The position numbers and the translations under genes are program-made. A model generated the notes under the pieces. The model searched no databases, was not told the DNA's origin, and worked only from the letters and a program-made list of their open reading frames with translations. This document shows, piece by piece, positions 25,909 through 40,078 of a DNA stretch of 45,209 nucleotides. Origin of the DNA: Eubacteriales bacterium (GTDB lineage Bacteria; Bacillota; Clostridia; Acetivibrionales; JANLFN01); contig JANLFN010000019.1 of the NCBI GenBank assembly GCA_024655885.1, forward strand, positions 1-45,209, read 5' to 3'. Each line of letters opens with the position of its first letter. Positions within the stretch are counted from its first letter, which is position 1.

Positions 25909-27159
25909 TCAGCCGGAGACCTGCAGCCTTTTGCGCAGCAAGAGCAGGTATAAAAATACGGATATGACGACACAGGCCGCCGAGCCCAGATATATATACC
26001 GAAATCCCATGTTTTGCGCTATGAATCCCCACATGATGGAACCCACGCCCATGCCGATATCCATGGAGGAAAAGAAGGTGGCATTGGCGGCTCCCCTGCG
26101 GTCGGGAGGACACAGCTTGACGGTGATGGCGTTTAACACCGGGTTCACGGTGCCCGAGCCGAAGCCGTACAGCACTGCGGCAATGAGGAAGGACGGAAGG
26201 GTGGCGGAAAAGGCGATCATCACCATGGAAATAATCATAAACGCCATGCCGGGCAGGATGATCCTGGTGGCCCCATAGCGGTCGGACAGCTTTCCTGAAA
26301 AAGGCCTGACCACCATTAGTGCGGCGGCGTATACCGTAAAGAATATACCGATGTTGTTTACATTCCGGGATATGGCGTAAGAAGGTATAAAGCTGGTTAT
26401 GCTGGCCATGGCGAGGGCGGCAAACAGCATGACAAAAGAAGGGACAACAGCGGTTTTTTCAAAGAGGACGGCTTTTTGTCCCTCACGGCTTACATCCGAT
26501 GTTTCGCCTTCTTTTAGGGCAGAAGGCTTTTGCCGGAGATCCAGGGAGGTGCCGGATTCCTGCTCGTAATTGATAAAGTAGGCCAGGATCAGGGCCAATA
26601 CCGATATGCCGAAGGTGACCGTATACAGGACTCTATAGCCGGCCACTCCTATGATATATAGCCCCAGAGCCGGTCCGACGGCGGTGGCGAGGACGCCGGA
26701 GAGCCCGAAAAAGCCTATGCCCTCCATGATCCTGGATTTGGGGACGATGTCTGAAACAATGGTGCCCACCGAAGTGGATTGGGCACTGAAGCCGATGCCG
26801 TGTATAAACCTGAAGAGGAGCAGCAGCCAAACCACGTAGGTAAAGTCATAGGATAAAGAGGAAAGTGCAAACAGAACAATTCCTGCAGTCAAAACGATTT
26901 TTCTTCCCCTGCTGTCCAGCAAATTTCCCACCAAGGGCCGGAAAAGAAGAGCCGATATGGAGAAAACCCCTGTCAGCAGGCCCCCCGAAGATCTGTCTCC
27001 ACCGATGTGAATGGCATACAGGGGCAGAGTTGACATATGTATGTTATTGCACATATTCATCAAGAAGCCTACGATCATCGCTTCTATAAAATATTTGGTC
27101 CACAACCTGTCTTTGGCACCAGTTTGTATACTTCCGGTTATTATATTTGCTTCTTCCAT
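25909..27159 (-). CDS. MFS transporter
   Basis: A 416-residue major facilitator with 12 predicted membrane segments. Motif A is seen twice: GNLLDSRGRKIVLTAG (residues about 77-92) and GKLSDRYGATRIIL in the second half. A charged central loop of about 40 residues (LDLRQKPSALKEGETSDV) separates the halves. It resembles drug/metabolite efflux carriers; the substrate is unknown. It is transcribed alone; a short hairpin (ATCCGG/CCGGAT near 27220) lies upstream. It is unrelated in close sequence to the pair at 135-2603. Confidence 0.88.
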   Translation of the reverse strand: MEEANIITGSIQTGAKDRLWTKYFIEAMIVGFLMNMCNNIHMSTLPLYAIHIGGDRSSGGLLTGVFSISALLFRPLVGNLLDSRGRKIVLTAGIVLFALSSLSYDFTYVVWLLLLFRFIHGIGFSAQSTSVGTIVSDIVPKSRIMEGIGFFGLSGVLATAVGPALGLYIIGVAGYRVLYTVTFGISVLALILAYFINYEQESGTSLDLRQKPSALKEGETSDVSREGQKAVLFEKTAVVPSFVMLFAALAMASITSFIPSYAISRNVNNIGIFFTVYAAALMVVRPFSGKLSDRYGATRIILPGMAFMIISMVMIAFSATLPSFLIAAVLYGFGSGTVNPVLNAITVKLCPPDRRGAANATFFSSMDIGMGVGSIMWGFIAQNMGFRYIYLGSAACVVISVFLYLLLLRKRLQVSG

Positions 27160-27406
27160 ATATACTTGCCTCTTTCGCTATTAATCGGTTTTACTAAAAA
27201 ATAGGTATCAAAATAAATCCGGCCTGCACCGGATTAACACCCGACCCCGGGATTGGGCTGCTCCAGGGGCAGACGGGCGATCAAATCCTGCTTGGATTTT
27301 TGATAAGAATTTAAAGAGAAGGGTGGAACCAGCAGCCTCTTCTCAAAATGCTAAAGAGTAAAAACAATTGGTTTGCAGCTCTATGGGATTCCCTTGATTT
27401 TTGCAG

Positions 27407-28786
27407 CTATTCCTCATCCGCCAGCTTCGGTACAAGATTGTTCTCCTGCTTCTGGGTAAGGTTCCGCAGTTCAAAAAACAGCCACACTCCGGTTATGATG
27501 GACGACAACAGGTCTGCTACGGGTCCTGCCACAAGCACTCCCTGCAACTGGAAGAAGCGGGGCAGAATAAGAAGGGCAGGGATCAATATAAGCAGCTGCC
27601 TTGAAAGGCTTAAAATCATTGACTGCTTTGGCTTCCCCACAGCCTGGAAATAGCCTGAACCAATTATTTGAAATCCTATGATGGGGAGGAATATCAAATT
27701 AACCAGTATGGCATGGCTCCCAAAGGCGATCAGTTCCTTATCGCGGCTGTTAAACAGGGCGATGAGCTGCGAGGGGAATAGCCGGGTCACAATAAAACCG
27801 ATGGTGGCAATGGTAGTTGCGGCTAAAACCGCATATTTAAGTGCTTCCTTAACCCTGTCGTACTTTTTGGCGCCGTAGTTGAATCCGATGATGGGCTGCG
27901 CGCCCTGGTTGATCCCGAACATGGGCATCATGATCAGCGTCATCAGGCTCATGATGACTCCCATTCCCGATATGGCGATATCTCCGCCGTAGTACTCAAG
28001 GCTCTGGTTCATTATGGCGCTCAGCAGGCATTGAGCCAGCTGCATCGCAAAAGGCGCTATTCCGATTGCCAAAATTCCCGTTACAATATCCTTTTTCAGC
28101 TTGAAGTTTTGACGGCGGATTTTGAGGGTGCTTTTGCCCCTGACAAAATGCGTTATGATCCATGTGGCTGATACGGCCTGTGAAATCACCGTTGCAAATG
28201 CCGCTCCCCTGATTCCCCAATGGAAGACAAAAATAAACAGCGGGGCCAAACAGGCGTTTAAAATCGTACCTATGAGCATTGTAGCCATGGCAATTTTCGG
28301 CTTGCCTTCGGCCCTTATAAAATTGTTCAATCCAAAGCTGAAGGTCTGGAAAACGCTTCCGCATAAAATGATGCTCATGTAATCCCTTGCATAGGGCAGT
28401 ACTTCGTTGCTCGCGCCGAAAACCCTGAGCAGGGGGTTCAGGAAAGTCAAACCCGCCACCGTGATGACAGCCGTGATGATGGACAGAAGCATAATGGCAT
28501 TTCCCATAATCAGCTCTGCCTCTTCCCTTTTCTGCTGGCCCAGCCTTATTGAGACCAAGGAGGTGGCACCCATTCCGATCAGCCCTCCAAAGGCCATCTG
28601 AATGACCATGATGGGAAACCCTATGGTGATTCCCGCGATTCCGAGGGAACCGGCGCTGTTTCCGATAAATATCCTGTCTATGACGTTATAAAGAGCACTT
28701 ACCAGCATCCCTATAATGGCAGGAATGGAAAAATCCAATAACAGTTTAGAAACTTTTTCTTCACCTATTCTTTGTGTGTTATCCAT
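27407..28786 (-). CDS. MATE-family multidrug efflux protein
   Basis: A 459-residue, 12-TM MATE transporter exporting cationic drugs or metabolites by Na+ or H+ exchange. The N-terminal lobe starts with LLLDFSIPAIIGMLVSALYN and VIDRIFIGN; the second lobe has the matching FGINQGAQPIIGFNYGAKKY. The ATG at 28786 has AGGAG eight bases upstream; a longer in-frame reading to 28810 is not supported. It follows a MarR gene by 99 bases on the same strand and is probably co-transcribed under the palindromic operator at 29415. Confidence 0.92.
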   Translation of the reverse strand: MDNTQRIGEEKVSKLLLDFSIPAIIGMLVSALYNVIDRIFIGNSAGSLGIAGITIGFPIMVIQMAFGGLIGMGATSLVSIRLGQQKREEAELIMGNAIMLLSIITAVITVAGLTFLNPLLRVFGASNEVLPYARDYMSIILCGSVFQTFSFGLNNFIRAEGKPKIAMATMLIGTILNACLAPLFIFVFHWGIRGAAFATVISQAVSATWIITHFVRGKSTLKIRRQNFKLKKDIVTGILAIGIAPFAMQLAQCLLSAIMNQSLEYYGGDIAISGMGVIMSLMTLIMMPMFGINQGAQPIIGFNYGAKKYDRVKEALKYAVLAATTIATIGFIVTRLFPSQLIALFNSRDKELIAFGSHAILVNLIFLPIIGFQIIGSGYFQAVGKPKQSMILSLSRQLLILIPALLILPRFFQLQGVLVAGPVADLLSSIITGVWLFFELRNLTQKQENNLVPKLADEE

Positions 28787-28885
28787 CTCTAATCTCCTAA
28801 CCTGTTTCACTTATTGTTGATTATATAGCTGCAGAAATAACGGAGTACTTTTCTGTTTCCGGTTTTGGCTGAAGTAAGATGTCGC

Positions 28886-29365
28886 TTACCGCTCTTTATC
28901 TGCACACTCTTTCTGCTCGTCAAGGTTGCCGATGATGCGGAGCAAATAATCTTTCAACGCTTTAATTTCAGATTTTTCAAAACCTTCCAGGGATTTATCG
29001 TTTACTTCCTCAAAGAAAATATTCATTTTCTCTATTAATTCCTTTGATTTTTCAGTCAGCGATATGGTCTGTGACCTTCTGTCCGAAGGGTTCACCTCTC
29101 TTAAGACCAGGCCCTGCTTCGCAAGCCTGTCAATAATGCCTGTGATGGTGGGCCTGTCATATCCCAGATGCTCTGCGATAGATGCGGGTGTGAAAATAAA
29201 CGGGTCGCTGCTGTTTCCCTGGCTTTTGAAAAGGTGCTTTATGACCACCAGCTGTGGGAAAGTAAGCCCAATCTCTCCCAGTTTTTGGTTAACCCTCCAT
29301 TTGGACAAGCGTGAGGCCTTATTCAAAAGATAACCCAGGTCGTCATTACACTGTCCCAACATCAT
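28886..29365 (-). CDS. MarR-family regulator of the MATE exporter
   Basis: A 159-residue winged-helix repressor. The recognition region is seen at residues about 60-90 (ASIAHLGYDRPTITG-like core, with IAEHLGYDRPTITGIIDRL) and the wing in REVNPSDRRSQTISLTEK. The start has GAAGGAG before the ATG at 29365. A perfect 32-bp palindrome covers its own promoter spacer and -10 box, so autorepression is strongly implied, with the MATE gene downstream as cargo. The ligand would be a drug-like or phenolic compound by analogy with the family; this is inference. Confidence 0.9.
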   Translation of the reverse strand: MMLGQCNDDLGYLLNKASRLSKWRVNQKLGEIGLTFPQLVVIKHLFKSQGNSSDPFIFTPASIAEHLGYDRPTITGIIDRLAKQGLVLREVNPSDRRSQTISLTEKSKELIEKMNIFFEEVNDKSLEGFEKSEIKALKDYLLRIIGNLDEQKECADKER

Positions 29366-29414
29366 CAGCTCCTTCGTTCAAAGGTTAACTATAATTAGTA
29401 CTCAAACTATTTCT

Positions 29415-29446
29415 GCGCATATAGTTAGTATACTAACTATATGCGC
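29415..29446. promoter_or_regulatory. 32-bp perfect palindromic MarR operator
   Basis: GCGCATATAGTTAGTA followed at once by its exact complement, with no spacer. The core TAGTTAGTATACTAACTA has the form of classic MarR/MgrA-type sites. It overlaps the spacer and -10 of the minus-strand promoter at 29427-29455. Confidence 0.85.
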
Positions 29447-29455
29447 GATAGTCAA
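29427..29455 (-). promoter_or_regulatory. Promoter of the MarR-MATE operon
   Basis: Minus strand TTGACT (29455-29450), 17 bases, TATACT (29432-29427). The -10 box is at the centre of the palindrome. Confidence 0.8.
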
Positions 29456-29486
29456 GAGCTATTTTCCTTTTTTTGATTTCATATGA

Positions 29487-29515
29487 TTGACTAATCAACT
29501 ATATTGTGGTATCTT
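29487..29515 (+). promoter_or_regulatory. Promoter and half-palindrome for the second MarR gene
   Basis: TTGACT (29487-29492), 17 bases, TATCTT (29510-29515). The -35 box is part of TTGACTAATCAA, a near-palindrome that could be the operator of this second MarR. Confidence 0.6.
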
Positions 29516-29557
29516 ATCTTATAACCTTATCAAGAAAGGGAAGCGGAGGTGTACTAT

Positions 29558-30013
29558 GTGAAAGACGGGCGGCCATCTCTGATAAGGCTTATAAATATTC
29601 TTTACAGGCGTACGCAGGTTTATACCAACGGGGTGCTGGCAAAATACCAGCTGAGCAGCGGTACATATCCGTTTTTACTCATGCTTAATGGAAAAGAGGG
29701 CATCAACCAGAACCAGCTCAGCAGGGAGCTGAGCCTGGACAAAGCGGCATCGGCCAGAGCCATTAAGCGGCTTATAGATCTGGGATATCTGGTAAAGGAA
29801 GGTAATCGGGAAGACTCAAGAGCGTTTAACCTGTTCCTGACCGAAAAGGCGAAGGCTGTCATTCCGGTGGTTATGGCAGAATTGCATCAATGGATGGATA
29901 TTATAACCGAGGGCTTAAGGGAAGAGGAAAGGGACCTTTTGGCGAATTTGTTGGGAAGAGTTTTGGAGAATGTGAAGAAATATAAGAGTAAACGATGCGG
30001 AAATGAAGGATGA
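29558..30013 (+). CDS. MarR-family regulator of the DHA2 exporter
   Basis: A 151-residue winged-helix protein. The HTH lies at residues about 50-80 (NQNQLSRELSLDKAASARAI) and the wing at KEGNREDSRAFNLFLTEK. GTG at 29558 is the likely start, with GGAGGTG upstream; the GTG at 29549 is inside the ribosome site. It ends three bases before the MFS gene, so the two are one operon. It is divergent from the first MarR gene, with both promoters in the 190-base interval. Probably a substrate-sensing repressor of the exporter. Confidence 0.88.
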   Translation: MKDGRPSLIRLINILYRRTQVYTNGVLAKYQLSSGTYPFLLMLNGKEGINQNQLSRELSLDKAASARAIKRLIDLGYLVKEGNREDSRAFNLFLTEKAKAVIPVVMAELHQWMDIITEGLREEERDLLANLLGRVLENVKKYKSKRCGNEG

Positions 30014-30016
30014 GAT

Positions 30017-31474
30017 ATGGAGCAGATGAAAGATAGTAAAATATATAAAAACAGGATGCTTATTTTGTTAAATGTTGTGCTGATGACCTTTATGGCCTGC
30101 CTGGACAGCAGTATCGTAAATGTTGCCCTGCCGGTCATAGCCAGAAAGCTGTCGGTGACCATGGAATCCGTATCATGGGTGGTAACCAGCTACCTGATTG
30201 TGATAGCCGCGACCATCCTCATATTCGGCAGGCTGGGGGACATAGCGGGAAAAACCAAGATATTTAAGTTCGGGATTGCTTTGTTTACCTTGGGTTCGCT
30301 GTTGTGCGGCATTTCGGACTCGTTTCTTATTCTGGTGGCGGCCAGAATCATACAAGCCGTCGGTGCGGCAGGCACTATGGCCACCAACCAGGGAATTATA
30401 ACCCAGGTGTTTCCGGATAATGAGAGAGGGAGAGCCCTGGGAATTTCAGGCGCTTTTGTGGCCCTGGGGGCTCTCACGGGTCCTCCCCTGGGGGGTTTTA
30501 TCGTCGCCGTGCTGAGCTGGAAATACATCTTTTTAATCAATGTTCCCATAGGAATTTTCACATTCATACTGGGGACAAGAATTCTTCCCCAATCGGATAA
30601 AAACACGGACGAGAAGCTGGATACCCGGGGAGCGGTTTTATTTGTCCTGGCTATAGTGTCCCTGTTCGGCTCCCTGCTTGAAGGCCAGGATATAGGGTAT
30701 TCACGGCCCATCATCATCCTGGGGTTTGCTGTGGCCGCCATATCCCTGACCATATTCATACTTGTGGAAAAAAGGATAGAGGTGCCTCTTTTGCAGCTTA
30801 CGATATTCGAGAACACCCTGTTTTCCCTCAGTATTTTTTGCGGATTTATCTCCTTTGTAGCCATCAGCTGTCCCAACATCATTCAACCCTTCTATTTGCA
30901 GGAAACGCTCAAGCTGTCTCCTGCAACCACAGGGCTGCTTATGATGGCTTCCCCCTTGATCCTGACGGTGGTTGCCCCTGCCAGCGGTTACCTGTCGGAC
31001 AAAATAGGGTCGGAATTCCTCACCCTTCTGGGGCTTATGTGCACCAGCGCCGGCTTGTTCCTCATGTCCACCTTCAATGAGCGTTCAAGCCTGTCAACCA
31101 TTGTAGCGTTCATTGCCGTTATGTCGGTGGGGAACGGAATGTTTCAATCTCCCAACAATTCCTTGATTATGTCTACCGTACCCCGGAACAGGCTTGGCAT
31201 TGCAGGAAGCATCAATGCTTTAATTAGAAACCTGGGGATGGTGTTCGGCATATCTCTATCCACAACGCTCCTGTACAACCGGATGAGTGACAAGCTTGGC
31301 TACCACGTCGTCAATTATGTGCATGGGAGAGAGGATGCCTTTATCTACGGAATGAGGTGTGTCTATATTACGGCGGCGGTTATATGCCTGGCCGGGGCAT
31401 TGTTGACCGGCTACAGGTTATATGGGAAAAAGATGGGAATGAGAGGGACGGAGGAAAAGCTGTACGAGACTTGA
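30017..31474 (+). CDS. DHA2-type MFS drug exporter (EmrB/QacA-like)
   Basis: A 485-residue proton-driven exporter with about 14 membrane segments. Motif D1 (CLDSSIVNVALPVIAR) in TM1, motif A (GRLGDIAGKTKIFKFG), motif B (ARIIQAVGAAG) and motif C (ALGALTGPPLGGFI) identify it as a drug:H+ antiporter of the 14-TM group. The substrate is not predictable. The start ATG at 30017 lies three bases after the MarR stop, implying coupled translation. Confidence 0.92.
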   Translation: MEQMKDSKIYKNRMLILLNVVLMTFMACLDSSIVNVALPVIARKLSVTMESVSWVVTSYLIVIAATILIFGRLGDIAGKTKIFKFGIALFTLGSLLCGISDSFLILVAARIIQAVGAAGTMATNQGIITQVFPDNERGRALGISGAFVALGALTGPPLGGFIVAVLSWKYIFLINVPIGIFTFILGTRILPQSDKNTDEKLDTRGAVLFVLAIVSLFGSLLEGQDIGYSRPIIILGFAVAAISLTIFILVEKRIEVPLLQLTIFENTLFSLSIFCGFISFVAISCPNIIQPFYLQETLKLSPATTGLLMMASPLILTVVAPASGYLSDKIGSEFLTLLGLMCTSAGLFLMSTFNERSSLSTIVAFIAVMSVGNGMFQSPNNSLIMSTVPRNRLGIAGSINALIRNLGMVFGISLSTTLLYNRMSDKLGYHVVNYVHGREDAFIYGMRCVYITAAVICLAGALLTGYRLYGKKMGMRGTEEKLYET

Positions 31475-31868
31475 TGCGGCTTTACTTTGCGGGCCCGGAG
31501 CAAGACCCTTATCACAGGAGATGCCCTGGTTGCCGCAAATATCCTCTTTACACTTAAGCCTGTGATTCCGGACCTTTGGCCCAAAGGGCCACCTTCCATA
31601 TTTTTTGTCTCTCTTAATATCCGGCTTCGCCCTGTCCTGTCCGTTAGCTGCGATAAAAAAACGGGCTTGCCTTTAGCCGTATGCGTATTTCTTCGAAAAA
31701 ATGCCAAAAAATGTGATTTGTTAAGATAACTGATTTTTTTGCATGTAAACGGCAAATACCCGGACTATTGGGACATAAACACATATTTCCCACGGGGTTG
31801 CAATGTAATATTATTTAAATATAGAATATTTTGAAAATAAAAATATTTTTATTTGGAGTGTATTCACT
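31475..31868. other. 394-base intergenic region
   Basis: No gene recognised. The left two thirds has scattered open frames without ribosome sites. GGCCCaaaGGGCC near 31580 is a short palindrome. The last 60 bases are AT-rich and hold the first copy of the 22-bp repeat at 31825. Confidence 0.4.
31825..31846. repeat. 22-bp repeat, copy 1 (candidate MarR operator)
   Basis: AATATTTTGAAAATAAAAATAT, placed 23 bases before the third MarR start. Copy 2 at 32349 differs at one base. An AT-rich, partly palindromic element in front of the regulator gene suggests autoregulation. Confidence 0.6.
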
Positions 31869-32336
31869 ATGGAACAAGCGAATGTAAAGGATGTCCAGCT
31901 TGTGGGAGAGGTTTTTGTAGACCTCATAAACCGGTATAACAGGATGATGAATAAAAAGAACCTTTATAAAGATTTGAAGGATCTCACCCTCATAGAAATA
32001 AACACGATTATTGTGATCGGCCGTGACGAAAGGGTGAAAAGCATGTCTCAAATAGCCAATTTGCTAGGCGTGAGCTTCGGGACACCCACGGTTACCGTTG
32101 ACAGGCTTATCGCCAAGGGCTATGTGGAAAGAATCCGGGATGTAGAGGACAGAAGACAGGTTTTTGTCAAGCTGTCCGAAAAAGGGAATAGCGTATATGA
32201 TTTTATCGCCAGACTGAAAAATGAAGCCATACAAAAAATATTCGGCATACTTGACGAGTCGGAAAGAGAAATTTTAATCAATATTTTATACAAGCTGAGG
32301 GGAAAACTGGAAGAGGTAATCAATGAGAGAAGCTAA
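31869..32336 (+). CDS. MarR-family regulator of the TolC/HlyD/ABC-2 cluster
   Basis: A 155-residue winged-helix regulator. The HTH is at about residues 55-85 (SMSQIANLLGVSFGTPTVTV) and the wing at RIRDVEDRRQVFVKLSEK. GGAGTG lies ahead of the ATG at 31869. It is followed after 150 bases by the export cluster on the same strand. Near-identical 22-bp elements flank it on both sides, so it probably represses itself and the cluster. It is not closely related to the two other MarR proteins nearby. Confidence 0.88.
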   Translation: MEQANVKDVQLVGEVFVDLINRYNRMMNKKNLYKDLKDLTLIEINTIIVIGRDERVKSMSQIANLLGVSFGTPTVTVDRLIAKGYVERIRDVEDRRQVFVKLSEKGNSVYDFIARLKNEAIQKIFGILDESEREILINILYKLRGKLEEVINERS

Positions 32337-32348
32337 ATTTTTTACACA

Positions 32349-32370
32349 AATATTTTGAAAATAGAAATAT
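32349..32370. repeat. 22-bp repeat, copy 2 (candidate MarR operator)
   Basis: AATATTTTGAAAATAGAAATAT, 21 of 22 bases the same as copy 1. A shorter inverted copy, AATTTCAAAATATAT, follows at 32422-32436. Together they precede the TolC-like gene. Confidence 0.6.
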
Positions 32371-32486
32371 CATATAATAGAATAGTTTTATATATAAATA
32401 TAATATATAAACAAATAAATGAATTTCAAAATATATGGCGCAAAAATTGCCGGAACTAAATTCGAATTATGGAGGAAGTGGTCAAC

Positions 32487-34046
32487 ATGAAAAAAAAGGC
32501 GCTGCCGCTTTGTCTTATATTCATGCTTTTATTTTCTTTCAGCGCTGAAAATGTATGGGCGGAAACTGCAAATCCACGGGTTTTGACAATCCAATCCGCC
32601 GTCAGGCTGGGACTTGAAAACAGTATTCTATTGCAGCAGCTTAGAAACAAGATTGCCAACAGTGATCTGAAAAGCAAGGCTGCCAATGAGATGGGGAATG
32701 ACCTGACGGACGGGCAGAACGACGTGGATATGGCGCAAAGTGAAATATATGATGCCGAAACCGAGCTGGATTCCGCCCAATACGCCATCAACAATGCCAA
32801 AATCGACATTGCCAACGGACGGGCGCCTGAGGCGATTACCGTTGCTCCGGGGGTGGTCATCGCCAAGGGAGCGGACATTGAGGACAGCCTGCGGAACATC
32901 CTGCAGTTCCAGGGCCTGTCAGGGGCCGTACTGGAGTCACAGGTTCAGGAGAAGCTTTCCGCTATTGTGGCGGGCATCGATTCACAGATTGCAATCAACC
33001 AGAGGGAGCTGGATGAGAAAAAGACGGAGTATGAGCGGAGCAGGAACGACATGCTCACCGGCACCATGGATTTTAAGATTGCCAAGGCCACCATTACGGC
33101 AGCCCTGGCGGATAAGCTGGATGTCAGCGAACTGGACGACTTGAGCGCAAGGGCCGCCAGTTCCATGCTGGTTAAAATGGCGGACGCCTCCAAAAAAGTG
33201 ATTACGGCCTCCGAGGGCATCTACAGGAACCAGATTGCGCTGCAGATACAAAACAGCTATTATGACGTGCTGAAAGCAAAAAAGATGCTGGAGGTCAAGG
33301 AAAACGCGGTAAAAAGGGGAGAGGCCCAGTACAACTTTGCAAAAGACGGCTATGAATCGGGCTTCAAAGCCAAGGACGACATGCTGCTGGCCAACATCTA
33401 CTACACAGGGGCCCAGCTGGAGCTGCAAAAGGCCCGGAACGACTATAACAATGCGCTGATAGAGCTGAAGAAGAATTTGAACATCCCTTTGACCGAGGAA
33501 GTGGTGCTGGAGGATGTGCTGGTGGATTCAAAGCCGCCGGTGAGCTACAGCAGCGGTCTGGAAAACGGGCTGAACAACCGGCTGGAGATTATCAAGGCAA
33601 AGGAAGAGTGCGATGTGTACCAGATGGACGCGGATCTGGTCAAAACCTATTACGGCGCGGATTCGGACCGGTACCTGGAAGCGCAGAACCTAAAGAAGAA
33701 TATGGACCTGGAGCTCAGCAAGGCGAAGCAGGAGGTGGAAAGCTCCATCAAGGAGTCCTACAACACCATGACCACGCTGGAGCAGATGCTGCAGACCTCC
33801 AGGGACATGGTGAGCCAGGCGGAGGAGTGCCTGGATATTGCCCGGAGCAAGTATGAGGAGGGCTACGACGCCGACAGCAGCCTGCTGAAGCAGTTGGACC
33901 TGGAGTCCACCGCCGGTACGGCCATGGAGGTTATCTCCGCCCAGGAAAATCTCTCCCAGGTGGAGGAGAAGTACGTGGAAATCCTGTACAACTATAACCT
34001 GGCCAAAGCGAAGTACTTAAATGATATTGCCTACCTGACCTATTAA
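32487..34046 (+). CDS. TolC-like efflux protein (OEP family)
   Basis: A 519-residue exported protein. Residues 1-25 are a clear Sec signal (KKKALPLCLIFMLLFSFSAE, cut after VWA). The rest is almost wholly helical with long heptad-rich stretches in two halves (about 30-270 and 270-519). QIQNSYYDVLKAKKMLEVKE, EAQYNFAKDGYESGFKAKDD and ALIELKKNLNIPL are typical TolC-family blocks. The strands that build the outer-membrane barrel are not evident. MKKKAL at 32487 is the start, because the earlier ATG lies in the ribosome site. In a single-membrane cell it may form a periplasm-like or wall-spanning duct or act as an adaptor; this is inference. Confidence 0.8.
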   Translation: MKKKALPLCLIFMLLFSFSAENVWAETANPRVLTIQSAVRLGLENSILLQQLRNKIANSDLKSKAANEMGNDLTDGQNDVDMAQSEIYDAETELDSAQYAINNAKIDIANGRAPEAITVAPGVVIAKGADIEDSLRNILQFQGLSGAVLESQVQEKLSAIVAGIDSQIAINQRELDEKKTEYERSRNDMLTGTMDFKIAKATITAALADKLDVSELDDLSARAASSMLVKMADASKKVITASEGIYRNQIALQIQNSYYDVLKAKKMLEVKENAVKRGEAQYNFAKDGYESGFKAKDDMLLANIYYTGAQLELQKARNDYNNALIELKKNLNIPLTEEVVLEDVLVDSKPPVSYSSGLENGLNNRLEIIKAKEECDVYQMDADLVKTYYGADSDRYLEAQNLKKNMDLELSKAKQEVESSIKESYNTMTTLEQMLQTSRDMVSQAEECLDIARSKYEEGYDADSSLLKQLDLESTAGTAMEVISAQENLSQVEEKYVEILYNYNLAKAKYLNDIAYLTY

Positions 34047-34072
34047 AATGACGATTTGGGGTGAATGGAACG

Positions 34073-35317
34073 ATGAATAAGAGCAGATTCGACTTTTTCA
34101 AAAACTTAGCAAAGAAAAATTCTCCCGGGGAAGACAGCACAGGCGCTTCCCATAAATCCGGAGCGAGTGTTTTTAAGAAAATAATACATAGCAGGTACAG
34201 CTATTATGTGGCCGGGGCGGCGGTAATAGCCCTGGTGGCGGTCACCGGCGCCGGCGCTGTCTCGCCCAAAGGGAATGTCGGCGCTTTTAACGAGAAGGAT
34301 GGGCTCATATCCCAGGGAACCGTGGAGTGCAAGGAAGTGAGCATCAATTCCAAGCTGCCCGGGAGGATCAGGAAGATCTATGTGGAGGAGGGGTCAGAGG
34401 TCAAAGCCGGAGACGTGCTGGTGGAGATTGAGGACGACGACCTGGAGGCAAAGAAGGAGCAGGCGGTAGCACAGCTGGAAGCGGCCAAGGCGGGCTATGA
34501 AGCGGCCCAGAGCGAGTCACAGGCTGCGGAAGCCGCTTATAATGCGGCAAAAGGACAGGTGGAAGCGGCAAGAGCCGCTCTCGAAAAGGCCAACAACGGG
34601 GCCAGAAAACAGGAAATTGCACAGGCTCAGGCCGGGTACGACCTCTGGAAAAAGACCTATGACAGGGTTCAAAAGCTTTTTGATAAAGGGGCGGTTTCGG
34701 CACAGAAGCTGGACGAGGTAAAGACCCAGCTGGAGGTGGCGGCACAGCAGCTGAGTATTGCCCAGGAGGGGGCCAGAAGCGAAGATAAGCTGGGGGCCCA
34801 GGCCCTTTTGACCCAGGCGCTTTCCATGGAGCAGGCGGCGGCGGACAAGGCGGCCCAGGCCCGGGCCGGGGTGAAAGCGGCCAAGGAAAAGGTGGATATG
34901 GCCCAGGGCGCTGTCCAGGAGGTGGAGGCCTACTTGAAGGACACCAAAATCACGGCGCCCATGGATGGGGTGGTGACCGTTGTGAATTCCCATGAGGGGG
35001 AGCTGGTGTCCAGCGGGATGTCCATTGCCACGGTAACCGACCTGAAGTCTCCATGGATTGAGGTAAAGGTCAAAGAGACCGATATTGGAAAGCTTTCGGT
35101 GGGACAATCCGCAAACCTGAGAGTGCCGGGCTTTTCCGACCGGACCTTCCAGGGAAAAATCGTAAGGATCAACGAAAAACCGGATTTTGCTACAAAGAGG
35201 TCTACCAATGACAATGGGGATTTTGATATCCTCTCCTATGGAGTTAAAATTGAGCTTTCCAATAACGACAAAATATTAAGACCGGGGCAGACAGGCTTTG
35301 TACAATTTGTAAAATAG
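34073..35317 (+). CDS. HlyD-family membrane fusion protein
   Basis: A 414-residue periplasmic-adaptor-type protein. A cytoplasmic lead of about 40 residues, one membrane anchor (about 44-62, VAGAAVIALVAVTGAGAV), a biotinyl-lipoyl half-motif (LPGRIRKIYVEEGSEVKAGD), a long alanine-rich coiled coil (about 120-275), the second lipoyl half (ITAPMDGVVTVVNSHEGELV) and a beta-barrel region (IEVKVKETDIGKLSVGQS). The ATG at 34073 is used; a GTG at 34061 is inside the GGGGTG site. It lies 26 bases after the TolC-like gene and 12 before the first permease, so one operon. Confidence 0.88.
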   Translation: MNKSRFDFFKNLAKKNSPGEDSTGASHKSGASVFKKIIHSRYSYYVAGAAVIALVAVTGAGAVSPKGNVGAFNEKDGLISQGTVECKEVSINSKLPGRIRKIYVEEGSEVKAGDVLVEIEDDDLEAKKEQAVAQLEAAKAGYEAAQSESQAAEAAYNAAKGQVEAARAALEKANNGARKQEIAQAQAGYDLWKKTYDRVQKLFDKGAVSAQKLDEVKTQLEVAAQQLSIAQEGARSEDKLGAQALLTQALSMEQAAADKAAQARAGVKAAKEKVDMAQGAVQEVEAYLKDTKITAPMDGVVTVVNSHEGELVSSGMSIATVTDLKSPWIEVKVKETDIGKLSVGQSANLRVPGFSDRTFQGKIVRINEKPDFATKRSTNDNGDFDILSYGVKIELSNNDKILRPGQTGFVQFVK

Positions 35318-35329
35318 GCGGTGGAACCC

Positions 35330-36484
35330 ATGATCAGCAGCTTCTTGAAAAAATGCCGGGCGGCGGGCGTCAATAGGATGGCCTTGATTGTGATCCTCTT
35401 GCTCCCTGCCGCCGTCAATATCCTCCTGGGCCTTGAATTCCTCAACGGACAGATTCGCAGCATACCCATGGCGGTGGTGGACCAGGACAATTCCTCTCTC
35501 AGCAGGATGATTGTACGGCAGTTTGAGGAAAATGAAACTTTCGACGTAAAGTACTATTTAAAAAGCGGAGACGAAGTAAAAGCCCTGCTGGATCGGGGGG
35601 ATGTGAAGGTGGGCATGGTCATACCCAGGGATTTCTCCAAGGATGTGGCGGGCTTCCGCTCCCCCGGCATATTAATGCTGTACGACGGCAGCCATATGTC
35701 GGTGGCCAGCACCGCCAAAACCCGTGCCACTGAAATCCTGATGAGCTTGAAAACAGGAACCGCCATGAAAATGATGTCGGGGAAGCTGAATATGCCGGGG
35801 ACTGTGGCGGAAAAAACGGCACAGACCATAGAATTCAGCAACAGGGTTTTGTATAACCCCACCAAAAGCTTTATGTACTTTTTGAATCCGGGACTGGGGG
35901 TGGCGGTGGTGCAGACCGGAATTGTCCTTATGGGCGTGGTATCTGTGGGCAGGGAAAGCCTGACGGGGAATCTGGCCGCCAGCCTGCGGTATGTATCGCG
36001 CAAAATATTGTCCTATGGCCTCCTGGGAACCCTTTCCCTGATGAGCAGTGTTTTTATCCAGAACAAGCTCTTTGGCATACCCTTCCGGGGAAACTATGGG
36101 TCCGCATGGCTGCTGAGCCTTTGCCTGGCCTTCTCGGTTTCGGTATTTTCAGTCATGCTGTCTGTGTGGATCCCCGACTCCATGATCGCTTCAACGGTGG
36201 GCGCCGTGCTTTTCATCCCCGATGCCGTCCTGGTGGGGTACACCTGGCCTGTGCTGTCCATGCCTGCGGCCTACCGGTTTGCGGCTTCCCTTATTCCTTT
36301 CGGACACTATGCGGATAATCTCAGGGACCTGTATTTGAAAGGGGTTCCCCTCCCGGCCCTGTTTAACGACATCCGGTGGTTCTGCCTGTTTGCCCTGGTA
36401 TCGCTGGCGGCTTTGGGCATGGGCCTGGCAAGGCGCAGCCGGCCGGTCTGCGGGAGGGCTGCGGCCTATGAGAAGGGGGCGTGA
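35330..36484 (+). CDS. ABC-2 type permease, first subunit
   Basis: A 384-residue membrane protein of the ABC2_membrane_3 (YbhR/YbhS) type. TM1 is near residues 17-37, a long extracytoplasmic domain follows (about 38-185, with AVVDQDNSSLSRMIVRQFEE), then five TM segments in the C-terminal half. It is paralogous to the next gene throughout. ATG at 35330 follows GGCGGTGG; an upstream GTG is part of that site. Permeases of this type normally need a cytoplasmic ATPase; none is encoded beside it. Probably a half-transporter forming a heterodimer with the next product. Confidence 0.88.
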   Translation: MISSFLKKCRAAGVNRMALIVILLLPAAVNILLGLEFLNGQIRSIPMAVVDQDNSSLSRMIVRQFEENETFDVKYYLKSGDEVKALLDRGDVKVGMVIPRDFSKDVAGFRSPGILMLYDGSHMSVASTAKTRATEILMSLKTGTAMKMMSGKLNMPGTVAEKTAQTIEFSNRVLYNPTKSFMYFLNPGLGVAVVQTGIVLMGVVSVGRESLTGNLAASLRYVSRKILSYGLLGTLSLMSSVFIQNKLFGIPFRGNYGSAWLLSLCLAFSVSVFSVMLSVWIPDSMIASTVGAVLFIPDAVLVGYTWPVLSMPAAYRFAASLIPFGHYADNLRDLYLKGVPLPALFNDIRWFCLFALVSLAALGMGLARRSRPVCGRAAAYEKGA

Positions 36485-36487
36485 GGG

Positions 36488-37654
36488 ATGGCTTTTTTTA
36501 AGGAATTGAAAACTGAAATCGTAAATACCTTTAAAAACAGGGATGTCATCATCCTGCTCCTGCTGGGGCCTGTGGCCCTGACACTGCTGTTCGGGGGAAT
36601 TTATCTCAACAGCTATGTGGAGGATATTCCCATTGCCGTTTTGGATGAGGACAATTCGAGCACCAGCCGGATGATAGTACAGCAGTTTGATGAAAATGAC
36701 CGGTTTGTGCTGAAATATACCGTGGATTCTCAGGAGGAGCTGAAAAACCTGCTGGACTCAAAAAAAATCCATATGGGAATCTGCATCCCCCCTCATTTCG
36801 AAAGGGATATTAATAAAGGTCAGTCTTCCCAGGTCTTGATCTTGGTGGACGGAACAAATATGGTGGTGGGCAACAACAGCTATGCAGCCGCATCTACCAT
36901 TATACAGACGGTTTCGGCCGGTGCCGAAATCAAAATTCTGGAGGGCGGAGGGATGGTGCCCCGGGACGCTGAAAATGTGGTGAATGCATTTACTTTCACC
37001 GACAGGACACTGTACGACCCCCGGATGACCTACATGAATTATTTGCTCTTAGGCTACATCGCTGTGTTTTTTCAGCAGGTGATGCTGTCCGGGGTAGGAA
37101 TATCCATTATAAAAGACGGCAGCCCTATAGCCCGGGAGGCTACGCTGAGGAAAATTTTCTTAAAAATCCTTTCCTGTGCCTTCTTTGCGCTTGTTTCGGT
37201 CTATGGGGCCATTCTCATTGCCGCCGGGATATTCCGTGTGCCCATCCGGGGAAGCATCCTTTTATCCCTGGCTTTTTGCGGGATATTTGCACCGGCCATC
37301 AGCTGTCCCGCCATTATGATCGCTTCCCTTGCCAAAGACAAGCTGAAATTCGCCCAGATTTCGTTCATGCTTTCCCTTCCCACCTTTGTAAGCTGCGGCT
37401 ATGTGTGGCCCCAGGACCAGATGCCGTGGATTCTGGGGACGTTGATTAAATTGATATGGCCTTTAATCTATTTTGCAAGGCCCCTGGATGAGCTGCTGTT
37501 CAAAGGAAGCCTCCCCGTCCGAAGCGCTCTCGGGCTTGTGCTGTATACCCTGGTATGGATGCCCGCCGCCATTTTCATGTTCAAGCGCAGTTTCAAAGAC
37601 GGGGCCGGGCTGGAAAACCACAATTTTCCCATGTTGCAGGAAAGGCAAATATAG
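36488..37654 (+). CDS. ABC-2 type permease, second subunit
   Basis: A 388-residue protein with the same layout as its neighbour: TM1 near residues 20-40, an extracytoplasmic domain with AVLDEDNSSTSRMIVQQFDE, and five or so C-terminal TM segments. The ATG lies three bases after the previous stop, so translation is coupled. It is the last gene of the set; the next plus-strand gene is a small unrelated membrane protein. No Walker A or ABC signature sequence occurs in any gene from 31.8 to 38.4 kb. Confidence 0.88.
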   Translation: MAFFKELKTEIVNTFKNRDVIILLLLGPVALTLLFGGIYLNSYVEDIPIAVLDEDNSSTSRMIVQQFDENDRFVLKYTVDSQEELKNLLDSKKIHMGICIPPHFERDINKGQSSQVLILVDGTNMVVGNNSYAAASTIIQTVSAGAEIKILEGGGMVPRDAENVVNAFTFTDRTLYDPRMTYMNYLLLGYIAVFFQQVMLSGVGISIIKDGSPIAREATLRKIFLKILSCAFFALVSVYGAILIAAGIFRVPIRGSILLSLAFCGIFAPAISCPAIMIASLAKDKLKFAQISFMLSLPTFVSCGYVWPQDQMPWILGTLIKLIWPLIYFARPLDELLFKGSLPVRSALGLVLYTLVWMPAAIFMFKRSFKDGAGLENHNFPMLQERQI

Positions 37655-38008: not shown

Positions 38009-38055
38009 TTTTTATTTTTTTCAGGGTATGCAGTGTCTGCCGTCAATGATTTCGC

Positions 38056-38085
38056 TTGCACTGACCGACGGACCATCTGTATTAT
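38056..38085 (+). promoter_or_regulatory. Candidate promoter for the AnfO-like fragment
   Basis: TTGCAC (38056-38061), 18 bases, TATTAT (38080-38085), about 165 bases before the start at 38252. Confidence 0.4.
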
Positions 38086-38251
38086 AATGATATTATTACA
38101 AATCGGATATTTGATTTTTATATACTGGGACGTATATTATAAATTAAGAGCGTCGCAGCCTCTCGCTTCATACTGCTTTGACCGGGCAGTTTGCAGCGGG
38201 GGGCTTTGTTTTTTCAAGGGTTTGGAAATTGTAAAAAGAGGGGTGCTTGAA

Positions 38252-38431
38252 ATGAGCAGAGACATTGCAGTGATTGTGGGTAACGACGGACAAACCGCAT
38301 CATTTTTTGAGCCGGGGATCATCCGGGTCTATAGCAAGAAAAACGGGGAGTGCGAGCAGATAAGGGAAGCGGCCCTGCATATTGAACTACGGCGAAAGGC
38401 TGCGGAGCCATGGCTCCGCAGCCTTTCATAA
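38252..38431 (+). pseudogene. AnfO-like protein, truncated
   Basis: A 59-codon frame from ATG 38252 with GAGGGG upstream. Residues 1-38 (MSRDIAVIVGNDGQTASFFE, then PGIIRVYSKKNGE) look like the start of Fe-only nitrogenase accessory protein AnfO, a family usually several times longer. After that the sequence departs, and the frame ends inside a terminator hairpin. A promoter and a ribosome site remain, so a short peptide may be made. The relation to AnfO is from memory of the family and is moderate only. No nitrogenase genes are present. Confidence 0.5.
38395..38426. terminator. Bidirectional terminator, 32-bp palindrome
   Basis: AAAGGCTGCGGAGCC-AT-GGCTCCGCAGCCTTT. It sits between the convergent AnfO-like fragment and groEL and can act in both directions. 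Confidence 0.8.

Positions 38432-38452: not shown

Positions 38453-40078
<1,626 letters not shown>

Follow-up and report, generated by a model that had tools for sequence, protein, structure and literature searches.

A contig of 45,209 nucleotides from a Eubacteriales bacterium (JANLFN010000019.1, assembly GCA_024655885.1; hereafter, the window is this whole stretch, read on its forward strand) carries a five-gene cluster that encodes a MarR-family regulator, a TolC-like protein, a HlyD-type adaptor and two paralogous ATP-binding cassette (ABC) permeases of the ABC-2 type, Perm1 and Perm2, and that has no ATPase gene. We find that the permeases belong to a broad lineage in which this absence is stable, and we consider how such a cluster might function in a host that probably has a single membrane.

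Gene content of the cluster

The five genes lie on the + strand with all frames intact, and gaps of 14, 3 and 3 bp separate the genes for the TolC-like protein, HlyD, Perm1 and Perm2. An earlier reading of the DNA, made from the sequence alone (the sequence-only reading), had described such a set, in one direction and with short gaps; coordinates and Pfam matches agree with it. The genes and two candidate operator sites are the following.

31825..31839, +: candidate MarR operator, copy 1, AATATTTTGAAAATA, 29 bp upstream of the MarR start
31869..32336, +: MarR-family regulator, FabT-like (PF12802, 9.6e-10; NCBIfam FabT, 1.4e-21, with 77 bits against a cut-off of 200)
32349..32363, +: candidate MarR operator, copy 2, between the MarR and TolC-like genes
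32469..34046, +: TolC-like protein, 525 residues as listed (OEP, 2.3e-22, two stretches)
34061..35317, +: HlyD-type membrane-fusion/adaptor protein (HlyD_D23, 1.6e-24; Biotin_lipoyl_2, 3e-11)
35321..36484, +: ABC-2 permease 1, Perm1 (ABC2_membrane_3, PF12698, 2.4e-42)
36488..37654, +: ABC-2 permease 2, Perm2, a paralogue of Perm1 in a separate tree group (ABC2_membrane_3, PF12698, 9.3e-36)

Matches to HlyD_D23, HlyD_3 and Biotin_lipoyl_2 identify the HlyD protein as a barrel-sandwich (biotinyl-lipoyl) adaptor, and a hydrophobic segment at about residues 48-67, read from the sequence, would serve as its N-terminal anchor.

The sequence-only reading had also stated that no Walker A gene occurs in the cluster or its neighbours. 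Consistent with this, Pfam detected no ATPase domain in nine proteins (the five cluster products and those of four flanking open reading frames, or ORFs), the Walker A pattern that we tried matched none of the 38 window ORFs of at least 100 residues, and an ABC ATPase query gave 51 matches in the host genome, none of them on the window contig. An ATPase domain concealed in a cluster gene, a concern of that reading, was rejected as a candidate because scans with domain libraries found none.

Absence of an ATPase across relatives

Homologues of the TolC-like protein occur in 47 of 398 genomes sampled from the phylum (E ≤ 1e-15) and in 5 of 58 sampled from the order (E ≤ 1e-10), the host genome being counted in both. 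Of 20 TolC neighbourhoods that we read, ten carry ABC-2 permeases, and an ATPase lies within five genes of the TolC gene in none of these ten, which include one that meets a contig edge after one permease (L054), one with a single permease (L063) and one with TolC on the opposite strand (L062). The other ten comprise five with an RND-like protein (judged by size and membrane segments), one with a MacAB-type set, two with an adaptor only and two with neither. At one locus (L058, 8137-14544), relatives of the window MarR and TolC-like proteins are encoded with HlyD and an RND-like protein of 1021 residues and 11 predicted membrane segments, which suggests that the ABC-2 pair and the RND-like pump may be interchangeable engines.

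The sequence-only reading had proposed a search for the same layout in relatives, with or without an ATPase. Perm1 matched 64 named loci, among which the layout recurs in many genera; an ATPase gene is found in the same operon run in a single one (L110, Carboxydocella), where 19 of the 64 runs reach the end of the examined DNA. Twin permeases are present in 42 of the loci, with an ATPase in the run of none of the 42, and HlyD, TolC and twin permeases share a run in 22. When either strand is considered, 8 of the 64 rows have an ATPase-like gene within five genes. In two rows (L119, L123) the matched permease was missed in ORF calling, and at least 7 of the 10 ABC-2 neighbourhoods described above recur among the 64. 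Judged by their titles, the loci come from Clostridia, Brevibacillus and its relatives, Negativicutes, Bacteroidota, Desulfobacterales and Elusimicrobia. Four Brevibacillus loci, L107, L109, L112 and L136, have the order TetR-HlyD-single ABC-2 permease, in an operon run with neither ATPase nor TolC; Brevibacillus is a classical monoderm genus.

An even census of ABC2_membrane_3 proteins in 61 genomes covered 73 of the 75 matches outside the host genome. An ATPase is nearby (as a fused domain, or on the same strand and no more than three genes away) in 59 of these 73 and absent in 14. ATPase-less permeases are therefore a minority of this family overall.

The permease lineage and its presumed docking loop

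Both permeases match PF12698, and the Perm1 model (predicted local distance difference test score, pLDDT, 78; 10 sequences) places ABCH-9C, ABCG and ABCA chains at the top of both structure searches. Its comparison with 8z01 aligned 342 residues (Z 19.8, root-mean-square deviation (rmsd) 5.8). Perm1 is thus predicted to be the transmembrane domain of an ABC-2, or type V, exporter. A match to the RbbA model NF033858 is confined to the C-terminal part and is far below the cut-off of that model (85.8 and 81.6 bits for the two permeases, against 1050).

We built a tree of 190 permeases, leaving out the columns of the loop discussed below; a quick search and long branches limit its detail. With 185 permeases labelled by linkage to an ATPase (112 without, 73 with), the tree requires three label changes, as compared with a mean of 57.4 for shuffled labels, and none of 500 shuffles was as low as three. 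The unlabelled permeases are L228, L258, L277 and L278 from the census, of which L258 sits in an ATPase-linked clade, and L141; L247 (one ORF of 590 residues, counted twice) and L266 (545 residues) were left off for their length. Relatives of Perm1 form a group of 37 and relatives of Perm2 a group of 34, and these are joined by relatives from Bacteroidota and Desulfobacterales, mostly single permeases, in an ATPase-less clade of 87. Seven of the 14 ATPase-less census rows fall in the lineage (two each from L230, L269 and L061, and L248). As judged from these sequences, lack of an ATPase is a stable trait of a broad lineage of permeases.

The cytoplasmic loop between transmembrane segments 2 and 3 (TM2-TM3) is regarded as the docking site of the ATPase in permeases of the ABC-2 type. 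By loop alignment, it is shortened in both window permeases.

35939..36001, +: Perm1 TM2-TM3 cytoplasmic loop, residues 207-227, shortened
37100..37162, +: Perm2 TM2-TM3 loop, residues 205-225, shortened

The aligned loop measures 23-25 residues in 73 of 73 ATPase-linked permeases. It is 20 residues or shorter in none of these, in 36 of 37 Perm1 relatives and in 21 of 34 Perm2 relatives. Comparator operons of the order HlyD-ATPase-Perm-Perm (L226, L232, L241 and L243) have a full loop in both permeases. Loop length was adopted after sequence motifs had been tried. The E. coli proteins YbhR, YbhS, YhhJ and RbbA carry RE-x-E-x-G[T/S] in this loop, and a first regular expression for a coupling motif was present in 18 of 18 ATPase-linked permeases and in 1 of 109 others (L141), but the 18 are closely related. 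The next pattern failed in 41 of the 59 ATPase-linked permeases of the broader census, and the motif was therefore abandoned as a test.

A TolC-type protein predicted to lack the membrane barrel

The likely true start of the TolC-like gene is the ATG at 32487, six codons past the listed one; by eye, GGAGG lies just upstream, and this start opens a clean signal peptide. The AlphaFold2 model of the protein, predicted as a single chain (mean pLDDT 85.6; 12 sequences), consists of long helices and only four strands, each of 3-4 residues (37-39, 123-126, 129-131 and 345-347). Foldseek returned 44 matches at E ≤ 0.001, all of them TolC/OprM/CusC-type chains as judged by titles, and a VIA structure comparison with 1ek9 aligned 323 residues (Z 26.7, rmsd 3.5). 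With the two OEP stretches, these matches point to a duplicated OEP domain and the TolC alpha-barrel fold. The four strands that each protomer would contribute to an outer-membrane beta-barrel are missing from the model, and their two sites are occupied as follows.

32814..32921, +: residues 116-151, at the site of the first TolC barrel strands; a beta-hairpin with a short helix, at the distal end of an added coiled coil (model and alignment with E. coli TolC)
33651..33665, +: residues 395-399, at the site of the second strand pair; a plain turn (helix-turn-helix in the model)

The small hairpin of the model comprises residues 123-131, at the tip of the added coiled coil, and the alignment leaves 3 residues at the second site, where E. 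coli TolC has 54. Across 51 aligned proteins, grouped by phylum and not by established envelope type, the stretch that matches mature residues 245-298 of E. coli TolC (54 residues) is 3-6 residues long in 40 of 40 Firmicutes sequences and 40-61 residues long in 10 of 10 sequences from Bacteroidota and Desulfobacterota. Structure prediction of this protein alone had been suggested in the sequence-only reading, which took it for a coiled coil without barrel strands; model and alignment agree in predicting a TolC alpha-barrel without a beta-barrel.

The host has further TolC-like genes. On another contig, C7 (L013, 7430-9878), two tandem genes for proteins of 439 and 375 residues lie downstream of SLH/Big_5 proteins, with no recognised transporter or adaptor adjoining; they could encode pump-free tubes of the wall or surface layer (S-layer). 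An OEP match on contig C62 was discarded, as it falls inside a HlyD/MacA-like protein and not a TolC.

The host envelope

The host genome is 3.44 Mb and is listed as 100% complete. Searches of it gave no matches for Omp85, LpxC or LptD; among 14 control genomes the Omp85 search was positive in 7, that for LpxC in 4 and that for LptD, the weakest of the three tests, in 2. Given that all three are unmatched in a genome listed as complete, the host is very probably a monoderm, in keeping with the single-membrane clostridium that the sequence-only reading had presumed, subject to a check for BamA and LptD. The genome has 59 SLH matches, and an S-layer is probable. Omp85 is likewise unmatched in 21 of 23 tested genomes that have the TolC or the permease lineage (the exceptions are Propionispira and Flavobacterium), a set in which completeness values are absent for 11 genomes and are 80-83% for two.

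Candidate operators and neighbouring genes

The candidate operator is 15 bases long and contains the perfect palindrome TATTTT-G-AAAATA. Within the window, exact copies occur only at 31825 and 32349; four matches are found when up to two mismatches are allowed, a number that 0 of 100 shuffles reach. Among 15 relatives checked, the upstream regions of MarR and TolC have a 13-base site in common in L053, L054 and L084, the last two apparently being one contig. Another relative, L074, has a long MarR-TolC gap, yet its two regions share just nine bases, and in the remaining 11 the gap to the nearest TolC ORF, where measured, is below 30 bases. As a component of the overall explanation favoured below, the cluster could be controlled by its MarR protein, with this pair of sites as candidate operators.

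Upstream of the cluster lies an efflux island (25909-31474).

25909-27159, -: MFS-like gene, named from sequence only
27407-28810, -: MATE-like gene, named likewise
28886-29365, -: MarR-like gene, named likewise
29549-30013, +: MarR gene (domain scan)
30017-31474, +: EmrB-type MFS gene (domain scan)

These efflux-type neighbours argue for export of a drug or lipid. Downstream, an ORF of 132 residues (38033-38431, +) weakly matches, in its C-terminal part, AnfO, a family of nitrogenase accessory proteins (PF09582; 30.5 bits, cut-off 30.3). It is followed by a GroEL-like gene (38453-40072, -), so named from its sequence, whose C-terminus differs from the usual GGM-repeat tail; no adjoining GroES-like ORF was noticed. 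An anti-phage system was considered and dropped, as PADLOC gave no matches for four proteins.

Hypotheses on energy source and function

We assign a probability of roughly one half to the hypothesis that the cluster encodes a naturally ATPase-less ABC-2 heterodimer, probably driven by an ion gradient, that passes its substrate to HlyD and on into a barrel-less TolC tube crossing the wall and the S-layer. From the components described above, we infer the assembly, export route, substrate and energy source. Perm1 and Perm2 would form a heterodimeric unit with the type V exporter fold, inherited without a nucleotide-binding subunit and with the presumed ATPase-docking loop partly lost. From the membrane, this unit would take up a hydrophobic substrate (a drug, fatty acid or lipid), which it would transport by means of an ion gradient, most simply of protons, instead of ATP. 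HlyD would join the permeases to the TolC-like protein, present as a trimer. The alpha-barrel of this protein, with a coiled-coil extension replacing the membrane barrel, would form a tube across the thick wall toward the S-layer. Transcription of the exporter would be under MarR control.

Some precedents exist for ion coupling. MsbA without its nucleotide-binding domain is described as carrying out drug transport (ethidium efflux) that depends on the proton gradient, and the membrane domain of LmrA is described likewise (PMC4979069). E. coli YbhFSR, an ABC-2 exporter with an ATPase, has been proposed to double as a Na+(Li+)/H+ antiporter (PMC8277102).

Several observations count against an ion-driven pump of this lineage. 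The purely ATPase-less clade of 87 has a support of just 67, where the wider clades that enclose it have 93 and 96. Within the ATPase-less lineage sit two small ATPase-linked groups, one of HlyD-ATPase-Perm-Perm operons (8 rows) and one from Carboxydocella (2 rows), so that either gain or loss of the ATPase would fit the tree. A loop of at least 24 residues is retained in 7 of 34 Perm2 relatives and, among the 25 ATPase-less permeases that fall outside the clade of 87, in 14; ATPase-less permeases of Bacteroidota, Desulfobacterota and Brevibacillus mostly retain the loop length, and single permeases of Bacteroidota and Desulfobacterales have a full-length loop. Because rows share ancestry, the loop counts are not independent. 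An invariant new membrane acid was sought across relatives and none was found, the best candidate being Perm1 E39, at the outer end of TM1, which is E in 27 of 37. The structure models rest on 10-12 sequences and cover the TolC-like protein and Perm1. Finally, MsbA and LmrA have a different ABC fold (type IV, unlike ABC-2).

A passive or signalling device, in which the ABC-2 pair drives no uphill transport and serves as a lateral gate, a lipid scramblase or a scaffold, is less likely. YhgE/Pip and EsaA are ABC-2-like proteins without an ATPase, and we know of no HlyD or TolC partners for them. The permeases show weak similarity to the N-terminal YhgE/Pip model TIGR03061 (4.7e-6 and 9.3e-5), and the missing conserved acid also favours such a device. 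However, these TIGR03061 scores (26.3 and 22.1 bits) are far below the cut-off of 96.15, HlyD and a TolC-like tube imply directional export, and the neighbouring efflux genes suggest a pump.

Still less probable is that the permeases borrow an ATPase encoded elsewhere, as the sequence-only reading had proposed in naming a shared ATPase as one of two options. Sharing of nucleotide-binding domains is known in other ABC systems, and the host has 51 ABC ATPase matches as well as a candidate donor: the start of contig C15 (L015) carries a TetR-HlyD-ATPase-permease set whose permease shares 26% identity with Perm1. Twelve close orthologues of this C15 permease, the host copy among them, occur in the order sample; 11 adjoin an ATPase, and the twelfth, L141, is at a contig end. 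Nevertheless, the scan for an orphan YbhF-like ATPase that the sequence-only reading had suggested found none among the best 30 of the 51 matches. These 30, some of which share a locus, all adjoin other membrane proteins: for 29, a protein with at least three predicted membrane segments is encoded on one or other strand no more than about 1.5 kb away, and the thirtieth (L163) adjoins an amino-acid-importer-type permease and binding protein. Nor was a dedicated nucleotide-binding subunit found, fused or in the operon. Together with the stable absence of an ATPase and the shortened loop, the placement of the 30 best ATPase matches next to other membrane proteins makes the other option, a different mechanism, the likelier one.

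A decaying operon that has lost its ATPase gene is very improbable: the cluster has one component fewer than the HlyD-ATPase-Perm-Perm operons, but its five frames are intact and its layout is a lineage-wide trait common to many genera. We give equally little credence to a cryptic diderm host with the TolC-like protein seated in its outer membrane, to which the TolC homology would point, against the unmatched Omp85, LpxC and LptD (the LptD model being positive in just 2 of 14 controls) and the lost barrel segment.

The ATPase-less heterodimer is thus the reading that we prefer. Of the export or wall-spanning device proposed in the sequence-only reading, the monoderm host, the barrel-less TolC-like protein and the absence of an ATPase are supported, and export, passage through the wall and the energy source stay conjectural. 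More tentatively, a broad natural ABC-2 lineage may work without ATP, as ion-driven pumps on HlyD/TolC conduits: in diderms they would be homodimers joined to a TolC that has its barrel, and in monoderms heterodimers joined to a TolC that lacks the barrel and spans the wall, the ATPase having been gained or kept twice in the sampled tree.

Relation to known systems

Barrel-less TolC in monoderms is already known: TolC-like proteins of monoderm Firmicutes in tripartite operons were reported in 2022, and for that of C. difficile an omission in the barrel domain was noted and an S-layer location proposed (PMC8809574). Those operons share with the window cluster a TolC-like protein, an adaptor and a transporter, hosts without BamA, the barrel omission and an S-layer host. 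In the window cluster the barrel site has, in addition, a long coiled-coil insert, and the engine is an ATPase-less ABC-2 pair; a missing ATPase is not mentioned in the consulted text of PMC8809574.

With exporters such as E. coli YbhG-YbhF-YbhS-YbhR and YhiI-RbbA-YhhJ and the clostridial HlyD-ATPase-Perm-Perm sets, the cluster shares an adaptor and one or two permeases of the ABC2_membrane_3 type; unlike them, it is ATPase-less and has a shortened loop. The ABCH, ABCG and ABCA type V exporters resemble the predicted Perm1 fold (ABCH-9C matches cover most of the model, at about 7-17% identity) but carry ATPase domains. YhgE/Pip and EsaA share an ABC-2-like membrane part without an ATPase, with TIGR03061 scores as given above. 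MsbA-MD and LmrA-MD offer an ABC membrane domain that works, proton-coupled, without an ATPase; however, these are engineered truncations (PMC4979069).

Gene sets of HlyD and ABC-2 permeases without an ATPase are common in the annotation of Bacteroidota, and we know of no study of them. In searches of open-licence papers aimed at ATPase-less HlyD/ABC-2 operons, none of the listed titles or abstract openings describes them, nor did we meet an ATPase-less ABC-2 lineage with a shortened docking loop, and an ATPase-less ABC-2 engine seems to be undescribed.

ABC exporters are defined by their use of ATP. If the preferred reading is correct, a conserved ATPase-less lineage with a partly lost docking site would demonstrate that, in nature, the ABC-2 fold can work alone, and the purpose of a TolC tube in cells without an outer membrane would be revealed. 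The operons at L226, L232, L241 and L243 provide natural matched pairs, HlyD-ATPase-Perm-Perm against HlyD-Perm-Perm, and the lineage, with its two nested ATPase groups, could then serve as a natural test of how ATP coupling is acquired or lost.

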